A stretch of DNA of 33,631 bases from Melioribacteraceae bacterium (lineage in GTDB: Bacteria; Bacteroidota; Ignavibacteria; Ignavibacteriales; Melioribacteraceae), in assembly GCA_026983795.1 (NCBI GenBank), contig JALSTI010000265.1, forward strand, positions 1 to 33,631, written 5' to 3'. Within the stretch, counting starts at the first letter, position 1. Every line of letters starts with the position of its first letter. The notes under the pieces are model-generated. The model was not told the origin of the DNA. It did no database searches and saw nothing but the letters and a program-made list of their open reading frames with translations. Position numbers and translations under genes: made by a program. Positions 18,902 through 29,336 of this stretch are shown here, one piece after another.

Positions 18902-19642
18902 ATGAAAGGTTGCTATATGAATTTTGCAATTATTGCCGCCGGAGAAGGTTCGCGGCTTAAACAAGAAGGAATTAGCATACCGAAACCGCTGGTGAAGATC
19001 CACAACACACCAATGATTGACCGGGTAATCAATTCCGCTATTCAAAACGATGCAACTTCCATTTCAATTATAATTAATGAAAACTCGGAGGAATTAAAAA
19101 ACCATTTAACTTCATTAAATCTCGGTATTCCGTTAAATATTGTTGTAAAGTCCACACCAAGCTCTATGCACAGCTTGTTTGAATTGTCCAAATTCTTACG
19201 GGACGAACCATTCTTCCTTTCCACCACCGATTCTGTCTACAGCAATTCAGAATTTTCGGATTTTGTAAGATTTTGCAAGACTCACAAAGAATATGATGCA
19301 ATTTTGGCTGTAACGGAATTTATAGATGACGAAAAACCGTTAAGTGTAAAATTAGATTCCGGTTTCAACATTCTTGAATTCGACGATTCAATAAATGATA
19401 ATCAATTCGTAACCGGCGGTGCGTATTTTTTCAGATCATTAATTTTTTCACAAATGGAATATGCATTAAGTAAAGGAACAAACCGGTTGAGAAATTTTCT
19501 AAGACTTTTGTTGGAAAAAGGCTATAAAATGCGCGCTTATTCGTTTAGTAAAATAATTGATGTTGACCATATTAACGACATTAAAACCGCCGAGGAATTT
19601 TTGACTAATATAGATAACAATTTGAATTATTATTCGTCTTAA
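18902..19642 (+). CDS. Sugar-phosphate-type nucleotidyltransferase, possible inositol-phosphate cytidylyltransferase
   Basis: The protein is 246 residues (241 if the ATG at 18917, 'MNFAIIAAGEGSRL', is used, which gives the standard N terminus). It has the NTP-transferase signature 'AAGEGSRL...PKPLVKI', a metal aspartate in 'LSTTDSVY' and a second in 'IIDVDHINDIKTAEEF'. The family joins a sugar-, choline- or polyol-phosphate to CTP, UTP or dTTP. It opens an operon that also contains Ino1 and a CDP-alcohol phosphotransferase, the set used for CDP-inositol routes in Archaeoglobus and Thermotoga. CTP:inositol-phosphate cytidylyltransferase is therefore the best guess; the specificity is inferred from context only. 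MlaE follows after five bases. Confidence 0.82.
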   Translation: MKGCYMNFAIIAAGEGSRLKQEGISIPKPLVKIHNTPMIDRVINSAIQNDATSISIIINENSEELKNHLTSLNLGIPLNIVVKSTPSSMHSLFELSKFLRDEPFFLSTTDSVYSNSEFSDFVRFCKTHKEYDAILAVTEFIDDEKPLSVKLDSGFNILEFDDSINDNQFVTGGAYFFRSLIFSQMEYALSKGTNRLRNFLRLLLEKGYKMRAYSFSKIIDVDHINDIKTAEEFLTNIDNNLNYYSS

Positions 19643-19647
19643 TAACT

Positions 19648-20403
19648 ATGGAAACCTTTACCAAAATACTTTCGGGTTTACAAAACTACACTTTATTTGT
19701 AAAAGATATAATTCGCGGTATGTTCCGTTGCTTTAAATATAAAGATGATGCTCTGAGAGAAATGTACTTAATAGGCGCAAAGGCGTTTTTGGTTGCTTTA
19801 GGAGGAGGATTATTTGTAGGTATTATTTTAGCAATTGAAGTCGGTCATCAACTTGAATTGTTCGGAGCTAAAACATTAATCGGCAGAACCGTTTCTCTTG
19901 GAATGATCAGGGAAATAGGACCTATTATTACCGGACTTCTTCTAGCGGCAAGAACCGGCGCTAAAAACACATCGGAGCTTGGCTCGATGCAATTGAGCGA
20001 ACAAATTGACGCTTTGCGCGCTTTCGGAACCAGTCCTGTTGATAGACTAATAGTTCCGCGCGTGGTTGCAGCATTGATTATGTTTTTACCTCTAACCCTT
20101 ATAGCCGATATAACCGGTATATTGGGCGGTATGTTTATAACTATTACCACATTCCACATGGATGTATCGTTTTATTGGCATTCCGCTTTGGATGCACTTT
20201 TACTTAAGGATTTATTCGTAGGCTTCCTGAAACCTTTTTTCTTTGCATTTTTTATAGCAACAATAAGCTGTTATTACGGTATTTACACAAAAGGCGGTAC
20301 AACGGGTCTGGGTAAAAATACAATAAAGGCGGTAGTTTCTTCTTCCGTTGCCGTTCTTGTTATCGATTTTATTTTTACCAAAGTTGTTTGGGAGGTTATG
20401 TAA
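19648..20403 (+). CDS. mlaE: MlaE-family ABC transporter permease
   Basis: The 251-residue integral membrane protein has about five to six helices. The MlaE signature is unmistakable: 'GMIREIGPIITGLLLAARTG', then 'ELGSMQLSEQIDALRAFGTS' and 'VPRVVAALIMFLPLTL'. MlaE dimers form the membrane part of MCE transporters, which move phospholipids between the inner membrane and an MCE protein ring. The ATPase and MCE genes follow with three-base gaps, so a complete MlaEFD-type complex is encoded. MlaB and MlaC are not present here. Confidence 0.94.
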   Translation: METFTKILSGLQNYTLFVKDIIRGMFRCFKYKDDALREMYLIGAKAFLVALGGGLFVGIILAIEVGHQLELFGAKTLIGRTVSLGMIREIGPIITGLLLAARTGAKNTSELGSMQLSEQIDALRAFGTSPVDRLIVPRVVAALIMFLPLTLIADITGILGGMFITITTFHMDVSFYWHSALDALLLKDLFVGFLKPFFFAFFIATISCYYGIYTKGGTTGLGKNTIKAVVSSSVAVLVIDFIFTKVVWEVM

Positions 20404-20406
20404 CAA

Positions 20407-21165
20407 ATGATAACCCTCAATAATGTATCGTTAAATTTAGAAGGAAAACAAATTCTTAATAATATATCGCTGAATGTTTGCGAAGGTAAAACAGCTATTA
20501 TTTTAGGACCTAGCGGAGCAGGTAAAAGTTCCGTTTTAAGAGTAATTTTAGGTTTATGGCGACCTCAAAAAGGAACGGTAATTATAGACGGTGAAGACAT
20601 TACTAATAAATCCGAAAATCAATTATTACATGTAAGAAGAAAAATGGGAATGGTATTTCAAGGAAACGCTTTGTTCGATTCTTTAACCGTTGCCGAAAAT
20701 GTTTGCTATTTTTTAAAAGAAAAAGAAAATTTAACCGAAAAAGAAATTTCCTTCCGCATTAAGGAATCACTTGAGTTTGTGAATTTGGAAGGAACCGATG
20801 ATTTGTATCCTGCACAATTGAGCGGCGGAATGAAAAAACGGGTCGCAATTGCTCGCGCTTTGGCTTTCAAACCTTGCATTCTGCTATACGACGAACCGAC
20901 AACCGGACTCGATCCTATTAATGCAAAATCAATAGTGGAATTAATTAATAAAGTTAAAGAATCCGGAACAACTACAATCGTAGTTACTCATATTCTTCAA
21001 GATGCAATAATTTTAGGAGACAAACTGACCCTTATGAATAACGGAAAAATTGTTGAGACTAATACCGTTGATAATTTGCTTAATTCATCGAACAATTTTG
21101 TCCAGGACTTCTTTTTCGAAATCAATCAGGAATTAAAAATTCTTAAACATAAATCAGTAATTTAA
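20407..21165 (+). CDS. mlaF: MlaF-family ABC transporter ATPase
   Basis: The 252-residue ATP-binding subunit has Walker A 'GPSGAGKS' (34-41), Q-loop 'GMVFQGNALFDSLTV', the signature 'LSGGMKKR' (138-145), Walker B 'ILLYDEP' (158-164), the D-loop 'TGLDP' and the switch histidine in 'VVTHIL'. 'FQGNALFDSLTVAENV' is typical of the MlaF branch. It powers lipid movement through MlaE. No residue needed for ATP hydrolysis is missing. Confidence 0.95.
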   Translation: MITLNNVSLNLEGKQILNNISLNVCEGKTAIILGPSGAGKSSVLRVILGLWRPQKGTVIIDGEDITNKSENQLLHVRRKMGMVFQGNALFDSLTVAENVCYFLKEKENLTEKEISFRIKESLEFVNLEGTDDLYPAQLSGGMKKRVAIARALAFKPCILLYDEPTTGLDPINAKSIVELINKVKESGTTTIVVTHILQDAIILGDKLTLMNNGKIVETNTVDNLLNSSNNFVQDFFFEINQELKILKHKSVI

Positions 21166-21168
21166 ATT

Positions 21169-22131
21169 ATGGGCGACAAAAATTTAAAACTTGCTAACCT
21201 TAAAGTTGGTTTAACAGTATTTATCGGACTAGTAATTTTCTTCCTTTTTATTTTTTTAGTAGGAACTGGTGGAAATTACTTTGCCAGCTCTTACGAACTG
21301 AAGTTATTTGTACAAGACGTTCAAGGGTTGGCAGAAGGTAATTTGGTTTCTTTGGGCGGTATTAAAATAGGAACCGTAAAAAAATTGGATTTTAAAACGA
21401 AAAATGATGTCCCGGGTATTAATATTCATTTGGAAATTCTGTCTAAATATAAAAACCAAATAACTAAAAGCTCAACCGCAGAAATAAAAACAATCGGATT
21501 GTTAGGCGATAAATTTGTGGATATTAAACTCGGCAAACCCAATGAAACTCCGTTAAACGAAGGGGATTACATCAAATTCCATAAATCATTAACAATAAAC
21601 GAAATTTCCAAAGAACTTGAACCGGCGCTTAACGACTTTGTTGTTGTTATGAAAAACTTAAGAATCATATCGGATTCGGTTTCGCAAGGGAAAGGAAGCC
21701 TTTCGCAATTATTAACAGACAATACTCTTTCCAACGATATAAAAAACGTAATACACGGATTAAATTCTTTTATCGGATCAATAAATTCTAAAAAAGGAAC
21801 TTTAGGTAAATTAGCTTACAGCGATTCAATTTATAATGAATTAGCTTCCCTAACAAAAAACTTTAATAAAATTAGTAATTCCGTTTCAAACGGGAAAGGA
21901 AGTTTGGGAAAATTGATTTCAACCGATTCGTTATACCATAACTTAAATGCTTTATTGACCAACTTAACCGGAATTACCGATAAGTTGAACGCCGATTCCT
22001 CAATTGCAGGCAGTCTGGTAAATAACAAAAAACTGTATACAACATTTAAGAAATTAATTATGGATCTCGATTCGTTATCGGTTGACTTGAAAAATAACCC
22101 CGACAGATACATACAATTTTCTATTTTTTAA
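21169..22131 (+). CDS. MCE/MlaD domain protein
   Basis: The 320-residue lipid-binding subunit has one N-terminal membrane helix (about 13-33), a single MCE domain (about 40-125, with 'FVQDVQGLAEGNLVSLGGIK' and 'GLLGDKFVDIKLG') and a long helical tail. The tail has 34-residue repeats beginning at residues 175, 209, 243 and about 278 ('GKGSLSQLLTD', 'KKGTLGKLAYSD', 'GKGSLGKLISTD', 'IAGSLVNNKKLY'). E. coli MlaD is only about 180 residues. Longer tails in MCE proteins can form a tube that spans the periplasm. It presumably forms a hexamer with MlaE and MlaF. Confidence 0.93.
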   Translation: MGDKNLKLANLKVGLTVFIGLVIFFLFIFLVGTGGNYFASSYELKLFVQDVQGLAEGNLVSLGGIKIGTVKKLDFKTKNDVPGINIHLEILSKYKNQITKSSTAEIKTIGLLGDKFVDIKLGKPNETPLNEGDYIKFHKSLTINEISKELEPALNDFVVVMKNLRIISDSVSQGKGSLSQLLTDNTLSNDIKNVIHGLNSFIGSINSKKGTLGKLAYSDSIYNELASLTKNFNKISNSVSNGKGSLGKLISTDSLYHNLNALLTNLTGITDKLNADSSIAGSLVNNKKLYTTFKKLIMDLDSLSVDLKNNPDRYIQFSIF

Positions 22132-22148
22132 CAAGGTGAACCGGTAAA

Positions 22149-23009
22149 ATGCGGATAAAATTAGCGGGAATTAAAAGACAGCTTGACTATTCACCGAATC
22201 ATATTGAAAATGATTCTTTAATCCTTATGCGAACAGCCGAACATTTAATTGGCCTTGGCGCTGTTGTATCAATATACAACGAAGAAGACATAGGGAAAAT
22301 AGAAATACCGGAAAAGATGATTTTTTCTATGGTACAGGGCGAACGTGCAACAAACGAACTAATGAATTATGAAAATGAAGGGCGGCAAATAATTAACTCA
22401 CCCGCCTCCGTCAAAAATTGCTACAGGGTAAATATGACCAAACTTTTACCGGAAAGCGGAATCCCATTTCCGAAAAGCGTTCACGTTAAAACCAACAATA
22501 CTAATTCCGTTAATTTTGATGACTTCGGCTCAAGAAAAATTTGGGTTAAACGGGGCGACGTTCATGCCGTTCACCGCGAAGATGTTACTCTGGTTTATTC
22601 CAATTCCGAAATGCTTATTACTCTTAGGGAATTTGAACGCCGGGGAATATCCGATGCAATTTTACAAACTCACTTGGACGGCGATGTTGTTAAATTTTAC
22701 GCGGTCAGAAACACGAAATTATTCCATTGGTATTATCTTAACGGTATAAACCATACAAAGTTTAATATAAAAAAATTACAAGAATTGGCAAAATCGTCAG
22801 CAGAAGTTTTAGGACTCTTTATTTATGGCGGCGATGCCGTAATTGCGGAAGACGGTTCGATCAGTATTATCGACATTAACGATTGGCCCAGTTTCGCACC
22901 TATAAGAGAACAAGCAAGTAAACAAATAGCAAAATTAATATTTAATAAGGCGGAAAAATATGAATACGGATTATGTAACGAAACAAAAATTCGCTTCAAT
23001 CAAGACTAA
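22149..23009 (+). CDS. ATP-grasp enzyme (RimK-like or inositol-kinase-like)
   Basis: This is a 286-residue ATP-grasp protein. The visible motifs are Lys134 in 'KIWVKRGD', the strand 'ILQTHLDGDVVKFYAV' (171-186) and 'IYGGDAVIAEDGSISIIDIN' (225-244), with Asp229, Asp242 and Asn244 as likely magnesium ligands. RimK-type members join amino acids to carboxylates or amines. The ITPK inositol-phosphate kinases share the same fold and a similar 'DIN..P' end. Ligation of an amino acid and phosphorylation of inositol both fit this operon. The preceding AAGGTGA is a fair ribosome site. Its 3' end overlaps the aminotransferase gene by 50 bases. Confidence 0.75.
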   Translation: MRIKLAGIKRQLDYSPNHIENDSLILMRTAEHLIGLGAVVSIYNEEDIGKIEIPEKMIFSMVQGERATNELMNYENEGRQIINSPASVKNCYRVNMTKLLPESGIPFPKSVHVKTNNTNSVNFDDFGSRKIWVKRGDVHAVHREDVTLVYSNSEMLITLREFERRGISDAILQTHLDGDVVKFYAVRNTKLFHWYYLNGINHTKFNIKKLQELAKSSAEVLGLFIYGGDAVIAEDGSISIIDINDWPSFAPIREQASKQIAKLIFNKAEKYEYGLCNETKIRFNQD

Positions 23010-24321
23010 AATACCCGGACCGGAATCTTTAAAGTATTTTGAAGAAGAACAAAAATACATAGCGCCGGGAATTCAAACTATTGCAACCCGTTCCAAAATT
23101 ACCATTGAGAAAGGCGAGGGTTGTTTGGTTTACGATGCAGATGGAAATAGATATATCGACTTCTTTGCCGGAGTTGGCGTGGCCAGTCTTGGTTATAACC
23201 ATCCCAAATACAATAAAATGATGAAAAATCAGTTAGAGCATATTCACGTCGGAAGTTTTACATCTAAAAACAGAGTTGCTTTAACCAAACTTCTTTCCGA
23301 AGTTGCAATAGGGGATTTGAGAAGAAGTCAATTTTACAGCGGCGGCGCAGAAGCGGTGGAAGCAGCTTTAAGAATGGCCAAATCTTATACTAAGAAAACA
23401 GAATTTATGGGCTTTTGGAGCGGATTCCATGGTAAAACCATGGGCGTTTTAGGACTTTTAGGCGATAATTTCAAAGCCGGTTTGGGCCCTTTAACTCCTG
23501 GAATTTACAATACTCCTTATGCCGATTGCCGCCATTGTGAATTTAACAAAACCTTTCCGGATTGCAATTTCGAATGTGTGGAGCATATCAGGAAAAAAAT
23601 ACGTTACGAAACAACAAATAATATTGCCGCCATTATTGTAGAACCGATTCAAGGAACCGCTGGAAATGTTGTTCCACCGCCGGGATATTTAAGAGAATTA
23701 AGAAAACTAGCCGATGAAATAGACGCTTTGTTAATTTGTGATGAAATGATAACAGGCTTTGGCAGAACCGGTAAAATGTTCGGGACCCAACACGAAGATG
23801 TTGTTCCCGATATAATTACAATCGGGAAAGGATTCGGCGGCGGATTTCCAATGACGGGAGTAATGAGCAGAGACGAAATAATTTTCGCAAAACCTTTCGG
23901 AAATCCGAGCGGAAGTTCATCAAGTTACGGCGGCAACCCGATGGCATCTACGGCAGCGTACGCAACTTTGAAAACAATTATTGAAGACGGACTGGTGGAA
24001 AATTCGGCAAAAGTCGGCGCTTTTATGTTGGAAAAATTTAACCAAATGAAAAACCGTATCCCGATTATTGGCGATGTGCGCGGCAAAGGATTGATGATTG
24101 GAATAGAATTAGTCAAAGGAAATAATACTAAAGAAAAACTTGATAAAAAATATACCGAAATGGTTTTCCACGAATGTTTGAAACGCGGATTAATTGTTAT
24201 GGGTTATAACCCAGATATAAGAATTTATCCTCCGTTAATAATTACGGAGGAAATTGCCGAAGAAGGTATTTCAATTATGGAGGAGGCTTTTACTTATGTT
24301 GCTCAACAGCTCAAATATTAG
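22960..24321 (+). CDS. Class III PLP-dependent aminotransferase
   Basis: The 453-residue enzyme belongs to the acetylornithine/4-aminobutyrate aminotransferase class. It has 'YSGGAEAVEAALRMAK' (phosphate site), 'IIVEPIQGTAGNVVPPPGYL', 'LLICDEMITGFGRTG' (Asp261 contacts the PLP nitrogen) and Lys290 in 'TIGKGFGGGFPM' (Schiff base). A four-cysteine insert (190, 193, 202, 206) resembles that of several class III enzymes. The substrate cannot be read from sequence. Its place beside a Gfo/Idh dehydrogenase and Ino1 suggests an inosose or another lipid head-group ketone. An AAGGCGG site precedes the ATG. Confidence 0.88.
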   Translation: MNTDYVTKQKFASIKTKIPGPESLKYFEEEQKYIAPGIQTIATRSKITIEKGEGCLVYDADGNRYIDFFAGVGVASLGYNHPKYNKMMKNQLEHIHVGSFTSKNRVALTKLLSEVAIGDLRRSQFYSGGAEAVEAALRMAKSYTKKTEFMGFWSGFHGKTMGVLGLLGDNFKAGLGPLTPGIYNTPYADCRHCEFNKTFPDCNFECVEHIRKKIRYETTNNIAAIIVEPIQGTAGNVVPPPGYLRELRKLADEIDALLICDEMITGFGRTGKMFGTQHEDVVPDIITIGKGFGGGFPMTGVMSRDEIIFAKPFGNPSGSSSSYGGNPMASTAAYATLKTIIEDGLVENSAKVGAFMLEKFNQMKNRIPIIGDVRGKGLMIGIELVKGNNTKEKLDKKYTEMVFHECLKRGLIVMGYNPDIRIYPPLIITEEIAEEGISIMEEAFTYVAQQLKY

Positions 24322-25219
24322 ATCAACATATAAGTCCGAGGATACGGAAGAAATATTAGACAAACTTTTCTACCGCCCGGTTGGTTACGGATTAGCAGTT
24401 ATTTCCAAAAAATTGGGCTTTACACCGAATGTAGTAACATTTATTAGTATTATTTTTGGCGTTACGGCGGGACATTTATTTTTCTACCGAGATGTAAAAA
24501 TAAACTTAATCGGGGTTTTTCTACTGGTATTTGCCGAATCGCTCGATGCTGCCGACGGTCAACTTGCACGTATGACCAATATTCATTCCCGCTACGGAAA
24601 AATATTTGACGGTGTTGCGGGTAACTTAATGTTTATTAGTATTTATCTTCATCTTTGTGCAAGGTATGTAATTGAAGGCGGAACACCGTGGATTTTTGCA
24701 ATCGCAGCAATATCCGGATTAAGTCATTCGTTCCAGAGCGCAATGTCGGAATATTACAGAAATTTCTATCTCTATTTTGTAACCGGTAAAAATATAGGGC
24801 AAATTGATGAATTAGAAGATGTATTAAAAACATACAACAAACTTTCATGGTTTAAAGACTTCGCAAAAAAAATTCTTCTCAGGCTTTATATTAATTACAC
24901 AAGGCAACAACAGGCGTTGTCCAAATCAATAAGAAAACTTTACAGATACATAAAAGATAATTTCAACGGGGTTGTGCCGGCTTGGTTAAGCCAAGAGTAC
25001 AGAAAATACAATAAACCGATGATTAAATACGGCAGTATCTTAACTACCAATACACGCATGATAGTTTTATTCATCACAATTTTTTGGGCAAATATTTTAT
25101 ATTACTTTTTATTCGAATTAATCGTACTTAACCTGCTGTTGGTTTATTATTCTATAAAGGAAGAGAAGATCAGTGCATATTTATTACGGTTTGCAAAAGA
25201 TAAAGGCAAAGGAAATTAA
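24296..25219 (+). CDS. CDP-alcohol phosphotransferase family protein lacking the fourth motif aspartate
   Basis: The 307-residue membrane enzyme starts at the ATG at 24296, which has a strong GGAGGAGG ribosome site nine bases upstream; an upstream start at 24254 lies deep in the aminotransferase gene and is less likely. The family motif is Asp84-x2-Asp87-Gly88-x2-Ala91-Arg92-x8-Gly101-x3-Asp105-x3-Gly109. Position 109 should be the fourth aspartate, the proposed catalytic base, but the codon is GGT. Several membrane helices surround it, and there is a basic central insert (about 155-220). Family members move a phospho-alcohol from a CDP-activated donor to a lipid or polyol. Here it would join an activated inositol-type head group to a lipid, if it is active at all. 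Confidence 0.85.
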   Translation: MLLNSSNIRSTYKSEDTEEILDKLFYRPVGYGLAVISKKLGFTPNVVTFISIIFGVTAGHLFFYRDVKINLIGVFLLVFAESLDAADGQLARMTNIHSRYGKIFDGVAGNLMFISIYLHLCARYVIEGGTPWIFAIAAISGLSHSFQSAMSEYYRNFYLYFVTGKNIGQIDELEDVLKTYNKLSWFKDFAKKILLRLYINYTRQQQALSKSIRKLYRYIKDNFNGVVPAWLSQEYRKYNKPMIKYGSILTTNTRMIVLFITIFWANILYYFLFELIVLNLLLVYYSIKEEKISAYLLRFAKDKGKGN

Positions 25220-26233
25220 ATGCTCAAAGGAGCTTTAATAGGGTTTGGCAAAATTGCGCAAAACAGTCATCTTGCTGCTTATTTTAATAACGGTTTGAAA
25301 AATAAAGTTTCTTTAACCGCAGTAGTGGAACCGGATGACCTAAACCGTGCAAAAAGCAAAGCAAAGTATCCTGAACTAAAATTTTATAAATCGATTGAGG
25401 AATTGTTAAACTCAAACGATATAGATTTCCTGGATATTACAACGCCGCCGAAATATCATAAAGATGTAATTGAAGCGGGAATTAAAAACAACTTAAATAT
25501 AATTAGTGAAAAACCTTTTACTCTTACCCTTAATGAGGCCGAGGAATTATACGGCAAATTAAAAAACTACAATAAGTATTTTATCCCGTGCCATCAATAT
25601 AAATTTTTACCTTTATGGCGGGAATTTAAAGAACAAATAACCAGGCTGGGTTCAAACGATAAAATTTTTTTACAATTCAATGTATTCCGGCAGCATGCAG
25701 ATCCCGGTTTGGAAATTTTTAATAATCCATGGAGAATAAACAAAGAAGTAAGCGGAGGCGGCATTTTAGCCGATACCGGAGTTCATTATTTATATCTTTC
25801 CATTTGGATGTTAGGACAACCGTTAAAAGTAACTACTAATATTTTTAACTTGGCTCACCATGATTATGAGGTTGAAGATACCGCACTTACAACAATCGAA
25901 TTCGAAAAAGGATTATCCCAAATTACACTTACATGGGGCAGTAATTCCAGATTAAACAGCGCAAATCTTGTTTCCCAAAACGTTAACTTAAAATATTCCG
26001 GCGGAACAAATCTTGTAAAAACCGTCGGAAATAACGAAGAAATTTTAACTATTCCCGATCCCTCCGATAAAAAAAATTATACGGCCCTTTACGTCTCGTT
26101 ATTCGAAGAGTTCATAAAAGGAATAGAAAACGGACTGAAACCAACCGGATGGGTAAACGAAGCATACCAATCAATTAAATTGATGGAAGCTTGCTACCGC
26201 TCGGCAAAAGAACAACGAACTATACTTTTATAA
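25220..26233 (+). CDS. Gfo/Idh/MocA family oxidoreductase
   Basis: The 337-residue NAD(P)-dependent dehydrogenase has the Rossmann loop 'ALIGFGKIAQNSH' (5-17), 'EKP' (97-99, the catalytic lysine of the family) and 'GGGILADTGVHY' with Asp185 and His189 in the active site. Family members oxidise or reduce hydroxyls of sugars and inositols; inositol 2-dehydrogenase (IolG) is one of them. With Ino1 in the same operon, an inositol or inositol-phosphate substrate is plausible but not shown. The start codon directly abuts the preceding stop codon. Confidence 0.9.
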   Translation: MLKGALIGFGKIAQNSHLAAYFNNGLKNKVSLTAVVEPDDLNRAKSKAKYPELKFYKSIEELLNSNDIDFLDITTPPKYHKDVIEAGIKNNLNIISEKPFTLTLNEAEELYGKLKNYNKYFIPCHQYKFLPLWREFKEQITRLGSNDKIFLQFNVFRQHADPGLEIFNNPWRINKEVSGGGILADTGVHYLYLSIWMLGQPLKVTTNIFNLAHHDYEVEDTALTTIEFEKGLSQITLTWGSNSRLNSANLVSQNVNLKYSGGTNLVKTVGNNEEILTIPDPSDKKNYTALYVSLFEEFIKGIENGLKPTGWVNEAYQSIKLMEACYRSAKEQRTILL

Positions 26234-26234
26234 A

Positions 26235-27239
26235 ATGAATAAGAAATTCAAAACAATATTTTTTGTTATTGGCATTGCCGTCTTTACTTTTCTGATATTC
26301 AACTTCGGAATTGATAATATTATTTTAAATATAAAAAAAACAGGTTGGTGGTTTTTGCCTGTTATAGGAATTTGGGGAATAGTTTATTTAATGAATGCCT
26401 GGGCATGGTATTTTATAATTGACGGAAAAAATAAAAATATTTCCTTTGCCGAAACTTTTGCCATAACATTAAGCGGTTTTGCTATTAATTATATTACTCC
26501 AGTAGTTAACCTTGGGGGTGAACCATACAGAATATTAGCTCTAAAAGAGTCCCTAGGATTGCACAATTCAGTTTCCTCAACGGTTTTATATACAATGATC
26601 CATTTCCTTTCGCACTTTATATTTTGGCTTTCCGCAATTATTTTGATGAGCATTTTTTCGCCTTTATCGGAAGCATTAAAAATTATATTTGCCGTTACGT
26701 CCTTTGTATTAGTTTTAGCAATTTACTTTTTTATTTCCCGCCATAAAAAAGGAGTGCTTTCTTCGCTTTATAAAATTTTGTTAAGAATTTCTTTTTTAAA
26801 AAATTATCATAAAAAATTAAAATCCAAAGAAGAATCGATTATTAAAATTGATAAAGAAATAACAAATTTTTACAATAACCGTAAATTGTCATTTTTTTCG
26901 TCACTCACGCTCGATTATTTAGCCCGTATTATTGCTTCAGTGGAATTTTATTTCATTCTGAGTTCGATAGGATTTAATATTTCTATCCTCGAAGCAATAT
27001 ACATAAGCGCAGGTTCTTCGTTAATTATGAACATTCTTTTCTTTATGCCTTTCGAATTGGGAACGAGAGAAGGCGGAATAATGTTAATAATGAGCGGATT
27101 AAAGTATACTTCTACAATCGGCGTGTATGTTGGATTGGTAAACAGAATCCGCGAATTTTTCTGGATTTTAATCGGGCTGATTTTGATTCAACTACATAAA
27201 CATAAAACAGCCGGCAAAAAAATTCTGGAATCGATATGA
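26235..27239 (+). CDS. UPF0104 / LPG-synthase transmembrane domain protein
   Basis: This is a 334-residue polytopic membrane protein with about seven to eight helices. Hallmarks of the YbhN/AglD/MprF-TM family are 'INYITPVVNLGGEPYRILAL' near residue 90 and 'MPFELGTREGGIMLIMSGL' near residue 275. In MprF this domain flips lysyl-phosphatidylglycerol, and in other members it serves glycolipid synthesis or transport. It lacks the soluble aminoacyl-transferase domain of MprF. In this operon it may flip or hand over the newly made lipid. One base separates it from the dehydrogenase gene and four bases overlap the HAD gene (ATGA). Confidence 0.9.
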   Translation: MNKKFKTIFFVIGIAVFTFLIFNFGIDNIILNIKKTGWWFLPVIGIWGIVYLMNAWAWYFIIDGKNKNISFAETFAITLSGFAINYITPVVNLGGEPYRILALKESLGLHNSVSSTVLYTMIHFLSHFIFWLSAIILMSIFSPLSEALKIIFAVTSFVLVLAIYFFISRHKKGVLSSLYKILLRISFLKNYHKKLKSKEESIIKIDKEITNFYNNRKLSFFSSLTLDYLARIIASVEFYFILSSIGFNISILEAIYISAGSSLIMNILFFMPFELGTREGGIMLIMSGLKYTSTIGVYVGLVNRIREFFWILIGLILIQLHKHKTAGKKILESI

Positions 27240-27952
27240 TAAACTTCAACACAACAGATACTATAATATTCGATTTTGGCGGAACGCTGGATATTAACGG
27301 TACTCATTGGAGTATGAAATTTTGGGAGGTTTATCAAAAAAACAAAGTTCCTATAAACTACGGGGAATTCAGAGAAGCGTATGTATATTCCGAACCCAAT
27401 GTTAGCAAATATGTAAAAAAAGATGATAACCTCTTTTCAACATTAAAAACCCAAGTATCATTACAATTAAACTATCTGACCAAAAGAAAAATTTCCTTTT
27501 CCAACGGTGTGGAAAATTATGTTAACCAAATTACCAAAGATTGTTATAAAGATGTGATTAGTAATATAAACGACACCAGGCAATTATTAAATTCCTTAAA
27601 ATTAGATTATAAAATCGGACTGGTTTCTAATTTTTATGGTAATATAAAAACCGTTTGTAAAGAGTTGGATATAGATTCGTATTTCGATGTTATTATTGAT
27701 TCAACCGAGATAAACATTAGTAAACCGGAGCCTAAGATTTTTGAACTGGCAATTAAAATGTTAAAGTCGAGTCCGGATAAAACAATCGTAATCGGAGATT
27801 CATACCAAAGGGATGTTATACCGGCAAAAAAGTTAGGATGCAAAACTATTTGGTTAAAAGGAAAAAGTTGGAAAGAAGAACACAATACCGGCGATGCGGA
27901 TTTTATAATACATTCTTTGTTTGAAATTGAAAATATATGCTCGAGAAAGTAA
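27236..27952 (+). CDS. HAD family hydrolase
   Basis: The 238-residue haloacid-dehalogenase-fold protein has motif I 'FDFGGTLD' (Asp13 nucleophile; the residue two on is Gly15, not the usual Asp), motif II 'GLVSNFYG', motif III lysine in 'ISKPEPKIFELAIKM' and motif IV 'VIGDSYQRDVIPAKKLGCKT'. Most HAD phosphatases have Asp at the +2 position as general acid. Members with glycine exist, but their activity is harder to predict. In context it may remove phosphate from an inositol-phosphate intermediate or phospholipid. Its start overlaps the previous stop codon by four bases. Confidence 0.9.
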   Translation: MINFNTTDTIIFDFGGTLDINGTHWSMKFWEVYQKNKVPINYGEFREAYVYSEPNVSKYVKKDDNLFSTLKTQVSLQLNYLTKRKISFSNGVENYVNQITKDCYKDVISNINDTRQLLNSLKLDYKIGLVSNFYGNIKTVCKELDIDSYFDVIIDSTEINISKPEPKIFELAIKMLKSSPDKTIVIGDSYQRDVIPAKKLGCKTIWLKGKSWKEEHNTGDADFIIHSLFEIENICSRK

Positions 27953-27989: not shown

Positions 27990-29336
27990 ATGTTAAACAA
28001 TCTATCAAAACCAAAAGGCAAATTAGGCGTTTTAATTGCGGGACTAAACGGAGCTGTATCTACAACGTTTTTAGCTGGCACGCTTGCGGTTCGTAAAGGG
28101 AAAGCAAAACCAATAGGTTCGCTAACACAAATGGGAACTATTCGCATCGGTAAAAGAATTGACGCAAACTTTCCCAAAATAAAAGACTTTGTCCCTTTAG
28201 CTGACTTAGACGATTTAGTTTTCGGCGGTTGGGATATTCGAAACGAAAATACTTATGAAAGCGCAAAAATTGCACAAGTGTTAAAAGATAGTGATTTGGA
28301 TGTAGTAAAAAATGAATTGGAAAACATTCGTCCTATGAGGGCTGCATTCCAAAAGCAATATGTAAAAAGACTGGACGGCGATTGGGTAAAGAAAGGTGAG
28401 ACCAAATACGACTTAATGGAACAAATTAGAAACGATATCAAATCTTTTAAAATAAGTAATAATTTATCCAGACTTGTTGTTATTTGGGCTGGGAGCACAG
28501 AAATATATACTCCTATTCATAATGTACACAAGACGCTTGCAAACTTTGAAATGGGAATGCGTGAAAATGATGACAATATAAGTCCCAGTATGCTTTATGC
28601 TTATGCATCTATTGCAGAAGGTGTTCCATACATAATGGGCGCTCCCAATTTGGCAATTGATACTCCTGCATTAATCGATTTCTCCAAAAAACAGAACGTA
28701 CCGATTGCAGGAAAGGATTTTAAAACCGGGCAAACTATGTTAAAAACCGTTATAGCTCCAATGTTAAAAGCCAGAATGTTAGGACTAACCGGATGGTTTT
28801 CAAGCAATATTTTGGGAAATAGAGACGGTGAAGTTCTTGACGACCCGGATAATTTCAAAACTAAAGAAGAGAGTAAGCTTTCCGTATTAGAGGGAATTTT
28901 ACAACCGGAATTATATCCGGAACTCTATGCTAATCATTATCATAAAGTTAGAATTAATTATTATCCTCCCCGCGGGGATAATAAAGAAGGTTGGGATAAT
29001 ATTGATATTTTCGGATGGCTCGGATATCCTATGCAATTAAAAATAGATTTCCTTTGTCGCGATTCAATACTTGCAGCTCCTATAGTTTTAGATTTAATTC
29101 TGTTTGCCGACCTTGCTCAAAGAAGCGGAATGCACGGCGTACAAGAATGGCTTTCGTTTTATTTTAAAAGTCCTATGCACGATGTTGATAAAGTACCGGA
29201 ACACGATTTATTCATTCAATTGATGAAATTGAAGAATACCTTGAGAAAATTAATGAACGAACATCCTATAACGCATTTGGATACTAACGGAGTTGAGGAA
29301 TTCAGCGATAATATCGAAGAATTCTTAGAAGATTAA
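27990..29336 (+). CDS. ino1: myo-Inositol-1(3)-phosphate synthase
   Basis: The 448-residue enzyme makes inositol phosphate from glucose 6-phosphate in an NAD-dependent, internally redox-balanced reaction. Key features are the Rossmann segment 'GVLIAGLNGAVSTT', 'VVIWAGSTEIY', the catalytic-core motifs 'GKDFKTGQT' (241-249) and 'SSNILGNRDGEVLDDP' (271-286), and 'PMQLKIDFLCRDSILAAPIV' near residue 350. It fits the short prokaryotic forms; eukaryotic Ino1 is about 510-530 residues. An AGGAG ribosome site lies eight bases before the ATG, and the 37-base gap from the HAD gene keeps it in the same operon. It is the strongest clue that the operon product contains inositol. Confidence 0.96.
   Translation: MLNNLSKPKGKLGVLIAGLNGAVSTTFLAGTLAVRKGKAKPIGSLTQMGTIRIGKRIDANFPKIKDFVPLADLDDLVFGGWDIRNENTYESAKIAQVLKDSDLDVVKNELENIRPMRAAFQKQYVKRLDGDWVKKGETKYDLMEQIRNDIKSFKISNNLSRLVVIWAGSTEIYTPIHNVHKTLANFEMGMRENDDNISPSMLYAYASIAEGVPYIMGAPNLAIDTPALIDFSKKQNVPIAGKDFKTGQTMLKTVIAPMLKARMLGLTGWFSSNILGNRDGEVLDDPDNFKTKEESKLSVLEGILQPELYPELYANHYHKVRINYYPPRGDNKEGWDNIDIFGWLGYPMQLKIDFLCRDSILAAPIVLDLILFADLAQRSGMHGVQEWLSFYFKSPMHDVDKVPEHDLFIQLMKLKNTLRKLMNEHPITHLDTNGVEEFSDNIEEFLED

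Follow-up and report, generated by a model that had tools for sequence, protein, structure and literature searches.

A Bacteroidota family of CDP-alcohol phosphotransferases from inositol-lipid clusters lacks the fourth signature aspartate

Enzymes of the CDP-alcohol phosphotransferase superfamily make most phospholipids. Their signature of eight residues, including four aspartates that are regarded as essential, has been described as absolutely conserved in the superfamily (PMC4634129). A gene of a Melioribacteraceae bacterium (assembly GCA_026983795.1) raises the question of whether such an enzyme can work without the fourth aspartate (D4). The gene lies at 24296..25219 of contig JALSTI010000265.1, the whole analysed stretch of which, 33,631 nucleotides, is called the window here; all features given below are on the + strand. 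It encodes a CDP-alcohol phosphotransferase (CDP-OH) of 307 amino acids that scored 49.8 bits against the PF01066 profile (cut-off 22). Translation gave the signature D84-A-A-D87-G88-Q-L-A91-R92-x8-G101-x3-D105-x3-G109-N110. The superfamily motif D1xxD2G1xxAR...G2xxxD3, which is conserved in the family of this protein, is thus complete, with D84xxD87G88xxA91R92 at 24545..24571 and G101xxxD105, containing the third aspartate (D3), at 24596..24610. The D4 site is occupied by Gly109 (codon GGT, 24620..24622), which is followed by Asn110 (codon AAC, 24623..24625). The translation bears out the preliminary description, made from the letters of the window, of a motif intact up to Asp105 with glycine in place of the final aspartate.

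The AlphaFold2 model of the protein had a mean pLDDT of 91.6 and a continuous signature helix (residues 99-126). The best structural match was AF2299 (4o6n; Z 17.9 over 209 residues, rmsd 3.1), followed by IPCT-DIPPS (Z 16.2), phosphatidylinositol-phosphate (PIP) synthases (Z about 14) and CHPT1/CEPT1 (Z 10.4-11.5). Sequence and predicted fold place the protein in the CDP-alcohol phosphotransferase superfamily, with an incomplete signature.

The preliminary description had suggested aligning the closest homologues. This alignment showed that Gly109 is conserved among them and that aspartate occurs in only a few scattered lineages. Across 204 non-identical homologues, residue 109 was Gly in 166, Asp in 28 (mostly distant ones), Ser in 6, Thr in 2, Ala in 1 and Glu in 1, and the D3 position was Asp in every sequence. 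Among 80 relatives from named genomes it was Gly in 75, Thr in 2, Asp in 2 and Ser in 1. As a control, other CDP-alcohol transferases of the window genome and of its relatives were inspected, and all 37 had D4. While Gly109 is conserved, D84, D87, G88, A91, R92, G101 and D105 are fixed across the family. In the 86 representatives of the GN and GD groups (groups are named here by their residues at 109-110), all metal and nucleotide residues other than D4 were invariant, including D84, D87, Q89 and R92. No relatives were found in viral contigs, and a literature search that took in few subscription papers found no earlier mention of the D4 loss. These comparisons indicate that the absence of D4 is a trait of the whole family, wider than the single-gene peculiarity first noted, and agree with the earlier proposal that it marks a branch: it is common to nearly the whole Bacteroidota family of transferases of the alternative inositol lipid cluster described below.

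Comparison of the window gene with its relatives gave dN of 0.24-0.27 and, where unsaturated, dS of 1.6-2.3, hence a dN/dS of about 0.1. The transferase gene is under strong purifying selection, and the suggestion that it is not decaying holds, as Gly109 is kept in homologues and the gene has no stops. Nothing pointed to an error of sequencing or to one recent mutation: the same residue was found in the closest homologues, in independent assemblies and isolates, including relatives at 65-71% identity. Together with the intact, selected reading frame, this makes such an origin practically negligible.

The transferase gene is tightly packed in an operon, as had been proposed: its 5′ end overlaps the aminotransferase gene by 26 bases and the oxidoreductase gene starts directly after its stop codon. 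The operon order is NTP transferase, MlaE/F/D, ATP-grasp, class III aminotransferase, CDP-OH, Gfo/Idh oxidoreductase, LPG-synthase-TM, HAD hydrolase and myo-inositol-1-phosphate synthase (MIPS). MIPS (27990..29336) matched PF07994 at 3.4e-104. The NTP transferase (18902..19642) is, from its profile matches and its place beside the CDP-OH, a probable inositol-1-phosphate cytidylyltransferase (IPCT), although it scored under the curated IPCT cut-off. An LPG-synthase-TM or flippase-like membrane protein (26235..27239) and the HAD hydrolase (27236..27952) were assigned from profile matches and neighbourhood, and an ITPK-like ATP-grasp protein (22149..23009) from neighbourhood and profile comparison. 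In the 80 loci, many of which end early at contig ends, the CDP-OH was accompanied by the ATP-grasp protein in 75, the HAD hydrolase in 74, the NTP transferase in 70, LPG-synthase-TM in 51 and MIPS in 49. An alternative inositol lipid cluster was proposed by Heaver et al. (2022) in Bacteroides vulgatus and Prevotella (PMC9246714). The window operon, in which NTP transferase, HAD hydrolase and MIPS are clustered with the transferase, belongs to it, and the core of NTP transferase, ATP-grasp, CDP-OH, HAD and MIPS found across Bacteroidota is this cluster. The pathway proposed for it, from CDP-inositol and diacylglycerol to phosphatidylinositol, is unconfirmed there too (PMC9246714).

Several features of the neighbourhood stand apart from this core. 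A profile of 30 ATP-grasp orthologues matched structures of inositol 1,3,4-trisphosphate 5/6-kinase (1z2n, 1.5e-5; 7pup, 5.3e-5; 2q7d, 4e-4), and the protein, which goes unmentioned in PMC9246714 (main text), may phosphorylate inositol phosphates or inositol lipids. The MlaE/F/D and aminotransferase genes (within 19648-24321) and the Gfo/Idh oxidoreductase gene (25220-26233), whose best NCBIfam match was inositol 2-dehydrogenase, under the cut-off, were in the cluster in only 7-13 of the 80 loci, chiefly in Ignavibacteria; perhaps they serve headgroup modification and lipid export. A contig labelled Patescibacteria (BOLA01000002.1, L040) carries an Ignavibacteria-type cluster with an aminotransferase 83% identical to that of the window; it is probably misassigned, or else the cluster was recently transferred.

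The same neighbourhood bears on the proposal of the preliminary description that the protein might have a non-catalytic lipid-binding role. A protein that descends from a CDP-alcohol transferase but now binds lipid or has a regulatory task would explain why a residue that the tested relatives need has gone. However, the rest of the signature is invariant and the dN/dS is low, and the protein is the sole candidate terminal enzyme beside MIPS and a cytidylyltransferase-like gene in a conserved cluster: the genome encodes four PF01066 proteins, the one under study, two PgsA-like and one PssA-like, and no other candidate terminal enzyme was found among them. Moreover, B. vulgatus and P. veroralis, both without the other known cluster, make inositol lipids (PMC9246714). 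The proposal is unsupported, and a non-catalytic protein is very unlikely.

An enzyme with exchanged substrates was also considered, namely a PIP synthase that joins CDP-diacylglycerol and inositol phosphate, with the HAD hydrolase acting as PIP phosphatase. The adjacent MIPS and phosphatase-like genes and weak NCBIfam matches to PIP synthases would fit this scheme, but the scores were far under the PIP synthase cut-offs and the conserved NTP transferase would be left unexplained. In addition, the Lys or Arg after D4 that PIP synthases need (PMC6506517) was found in none of the 204 sequences, the window protein having Asn110. We consider this assignment unlikely, if slightly less so than a non-catalytic role.

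Most probably the protein is active, catalyses the last step in the synthesis of inositol lipids from CDP-inositol and does so with no D4 at the usual site, its substrates, its activity and the replacement of D4 all being deduced. MIPS would produce inositol-1-phosphate, the NTP transferase would convert it to CDP-inositol, and the membrane transferase would move inositol phosphate from CDP-inositol to a lipid alcohol (diacylglycerol or a related lipid). D84, D87 and D105 would bind metal and CDP, and the canonical D4 would have been lost early in the family. Proton removal and second-metal contacts would then come from elsewhere, the candidates being Asn110, next to the missing carboxylate, and two residues of the adjacent helix, Asp/Glu152 and His144. 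The 'altered chemistry' envisaged at the outset is plausible on these terms. What weighs against an active enzyme is the need for D4 in every tested relative: in MtPIPS, where the signature was described as 'eight absolutely conserved residues', D93N almost abolishes activity (PMC4634129), and Asp-to-Ala mutants of CHPT1 retain under 20% activity (PMC10182977).

Work on these relatives also indicates where a substitute for D4 might be sought. In MtPgsA1, D4 is the presumed base and the next residue, R94, faces the acceptor pocket (PMC6506517). In enzymes with lipid-alcohol acceptors the proposed base is a histidine and not D4, H133 in CHPT1 (PMC10182977) and His155 or His197 in CEPT1. In MtPIPS (S132 and K135; PMC4634129) and in CEPT1 (His197), the acceptor site is lined by residues that lie about 39-42 positions after D4. 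A profile alignment, of low confidence in this region, placed CEPT1 His197 near residue 150 of the window protein, close to Asp/Glu152. In the window protein this residue is Glu152 (24749..24751), a candidate replacement carboxylate that is Asp in most relatives and acidic in every representative counted. His144 (24725..24727), invariant in the GN, GD, DN and DH groups, is a candidate general base. Both residues are also present in relatives that keep D4, so they do not count as specific compensations; they would rather have been there beforehand and have allowed D4 to be dispensed with. They are candidate stand-ins in the next helix, neither of which is preferred.

Two further assignments were rejected. 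The E/H base pair of the CHPT1 type (G2ExxD3HxxD4) is missing from the family, the window protein having K102, G106 and G109 instead, and H144 was not equated with CEPT1 His197, which the low-confidence profile alignment puts six residues away, near residue 150.

A quick maximum-likelihood tree of 111 representatives was built with columns 109 and 110 left out and rooted on more distant D4-bearing paralogues. Three changes between Asp and non-Asp at residue 109 are needed on this tree. Its simplest reading would be that D4 was lost once, early, with Asn at 110, as in the window and in other Ignavibacteria (GN); Asp109 would later have been regained twice (in L014, and in L134 with L136) or retained in one of these, and in the main group of Bacteroidota Asn110 would afterwards have given way to Asp (GD). 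Support at the base was only moderate (SH-aLRT 80-92), and we are unsure of the order of these changes; that Asp109 is limited to a few lineages is secure. Site 110 changed five times on the tree, too few for a covariation test. H119, considered as a replacement for D4, was seen only together with N110 and was missing in five N110 representatives, which leaves two independent comparisons on supported branches. Four second copies from one Bacteroidota family (L224, L225, L226 and L227) have kept D84, D87 and D105 and have lost the carboxylate at 109/110, H144 and R155; they may have changed in function and are perhaps truly altered members.

The distribution of states at 110 bears on another explanation, in which D4 has merely shifted by one residue: Asp110 would do the job of D4 in the GD type, Asn110 would be a weaker metal ligand in the branch of the window, and the enzyme would be an ordinary two-metal transferase. 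Residues 109-110 are GD in 125 of the 204 sequences, and the position of MtPgsA1 R94 shows that the residue after D4 can face the acceptor pocket. Nevertheless, the GN state, apparently the older one on the tree, has no carboxylate at 110, and the D93N mutation kills MtPIPS. The signature helix is also predicted to be unbroken, so that residue 110 should point about 100 degrees away from 109. A shift is therefore possible but doubtful for the family; it may apply to the GD enzymes, not to the GN branch of the window, where neither 109 nor 110 bears a carboxylate. We lean, with some reserve, towards a large natural subfamily that transfers inositol phosphate without D4 by a different base or metal arrangement, with Asp/Glu152 and His144 as candidates, a carboxylate having been re-acquired later one residue further on in most Bacteroidota.

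A large natural group of proteins thus departs from the 'absolutely conserved' four-aspartate rule and, if the proposed reaction is correct, inositol-phosphate transfer without D4 breaks the rule that all eight residues are absolutely conserved. The inositol-lipid pathway proposed for common gut Bacteroidota falls within the D4-less branch, which offers a natural test of the role of D4 as base or as metal ligand. Searches requiring GX3DX3D would miss such enzymes.

One of the closest known systems is the cluster in a genome that we take to be that of B. vulgatus ATCC 8482. Its order is NTP transferase, ATP-grasp, CDP-OH, LPG-synthase-TM and HAD, then MIPS, and its CDP-OH reads DGFAGDI, with Gly at the D4 site and Asp at 110. 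This protein is apparently 'BV Ptrans' (BVU_RS13105), the gene order fitting the numbering BVU_RS13095, 13105, 13115. It resembles the window protein in neighbourhood, family and glycine at D4, at about 40% identity, but has Asp110 where the latter has Asn110, and the window operon adds the Mla genes, the aminotransferase and the oxidoreductase. B. vulgatus, with an apparently D4-less enzyme, is reported to make inositol lipids in the absence of the other known pathway, which speaks for D4-less members being functional in cells. The apparent B. vulgatus protein (L282) has GX3DX4D and does not fit GX3DX3D, the PHI-BLAST pattern published for the B. vulgatus enzyme (PMC9246714). Two 577-residue proteins (L207 and L256) are fusions of a D4-less CDP-OH domain, with Gly at D4, to a HAD hydrolase, and resemble the CDP-OH-HAD fusion reported for P. 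veroralis.

A more distant homologue, the apparent CDP-OH of Rhodothermus marinus (about 27% identity), has MIPS downstream and then an NTP transferase, which matched NF041135 in its IPCT portion (3.7e-38), under the full-length cut-off of the model. R. marinus is the organism in which the synthesis of ether inositol lipids by way of CDP-inositol (CDP-inositol:dialkylglycerol) was demonstrated. In contrast to the window protein, its CDP-OH keeps D4 (DHG), and its cluster is without ATP-grasp and HAD homologues. The part of the family whose biochemistry is known would therefore keep D4, and the Bacteroidota branch is without it. The Archaeoglobus proteins IPCT-DIPPS (4mnd) and AF2299 (4o6m, 4o6n) share the fold, and IPCT-DIPPS also uses CDP-inositol; unlike the window protein, both keep D4, and the acceptor of IPCT-DIPPS is soluble. 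CHPT1 and CEPT1 share the core fold and, as proposed for the window protein, combine a CDP-headgroup donor with a lipid-alcohol acceptor, but they keep D4, carry the E/H pair around D3 that the window protein lacks, and have four extra helices.
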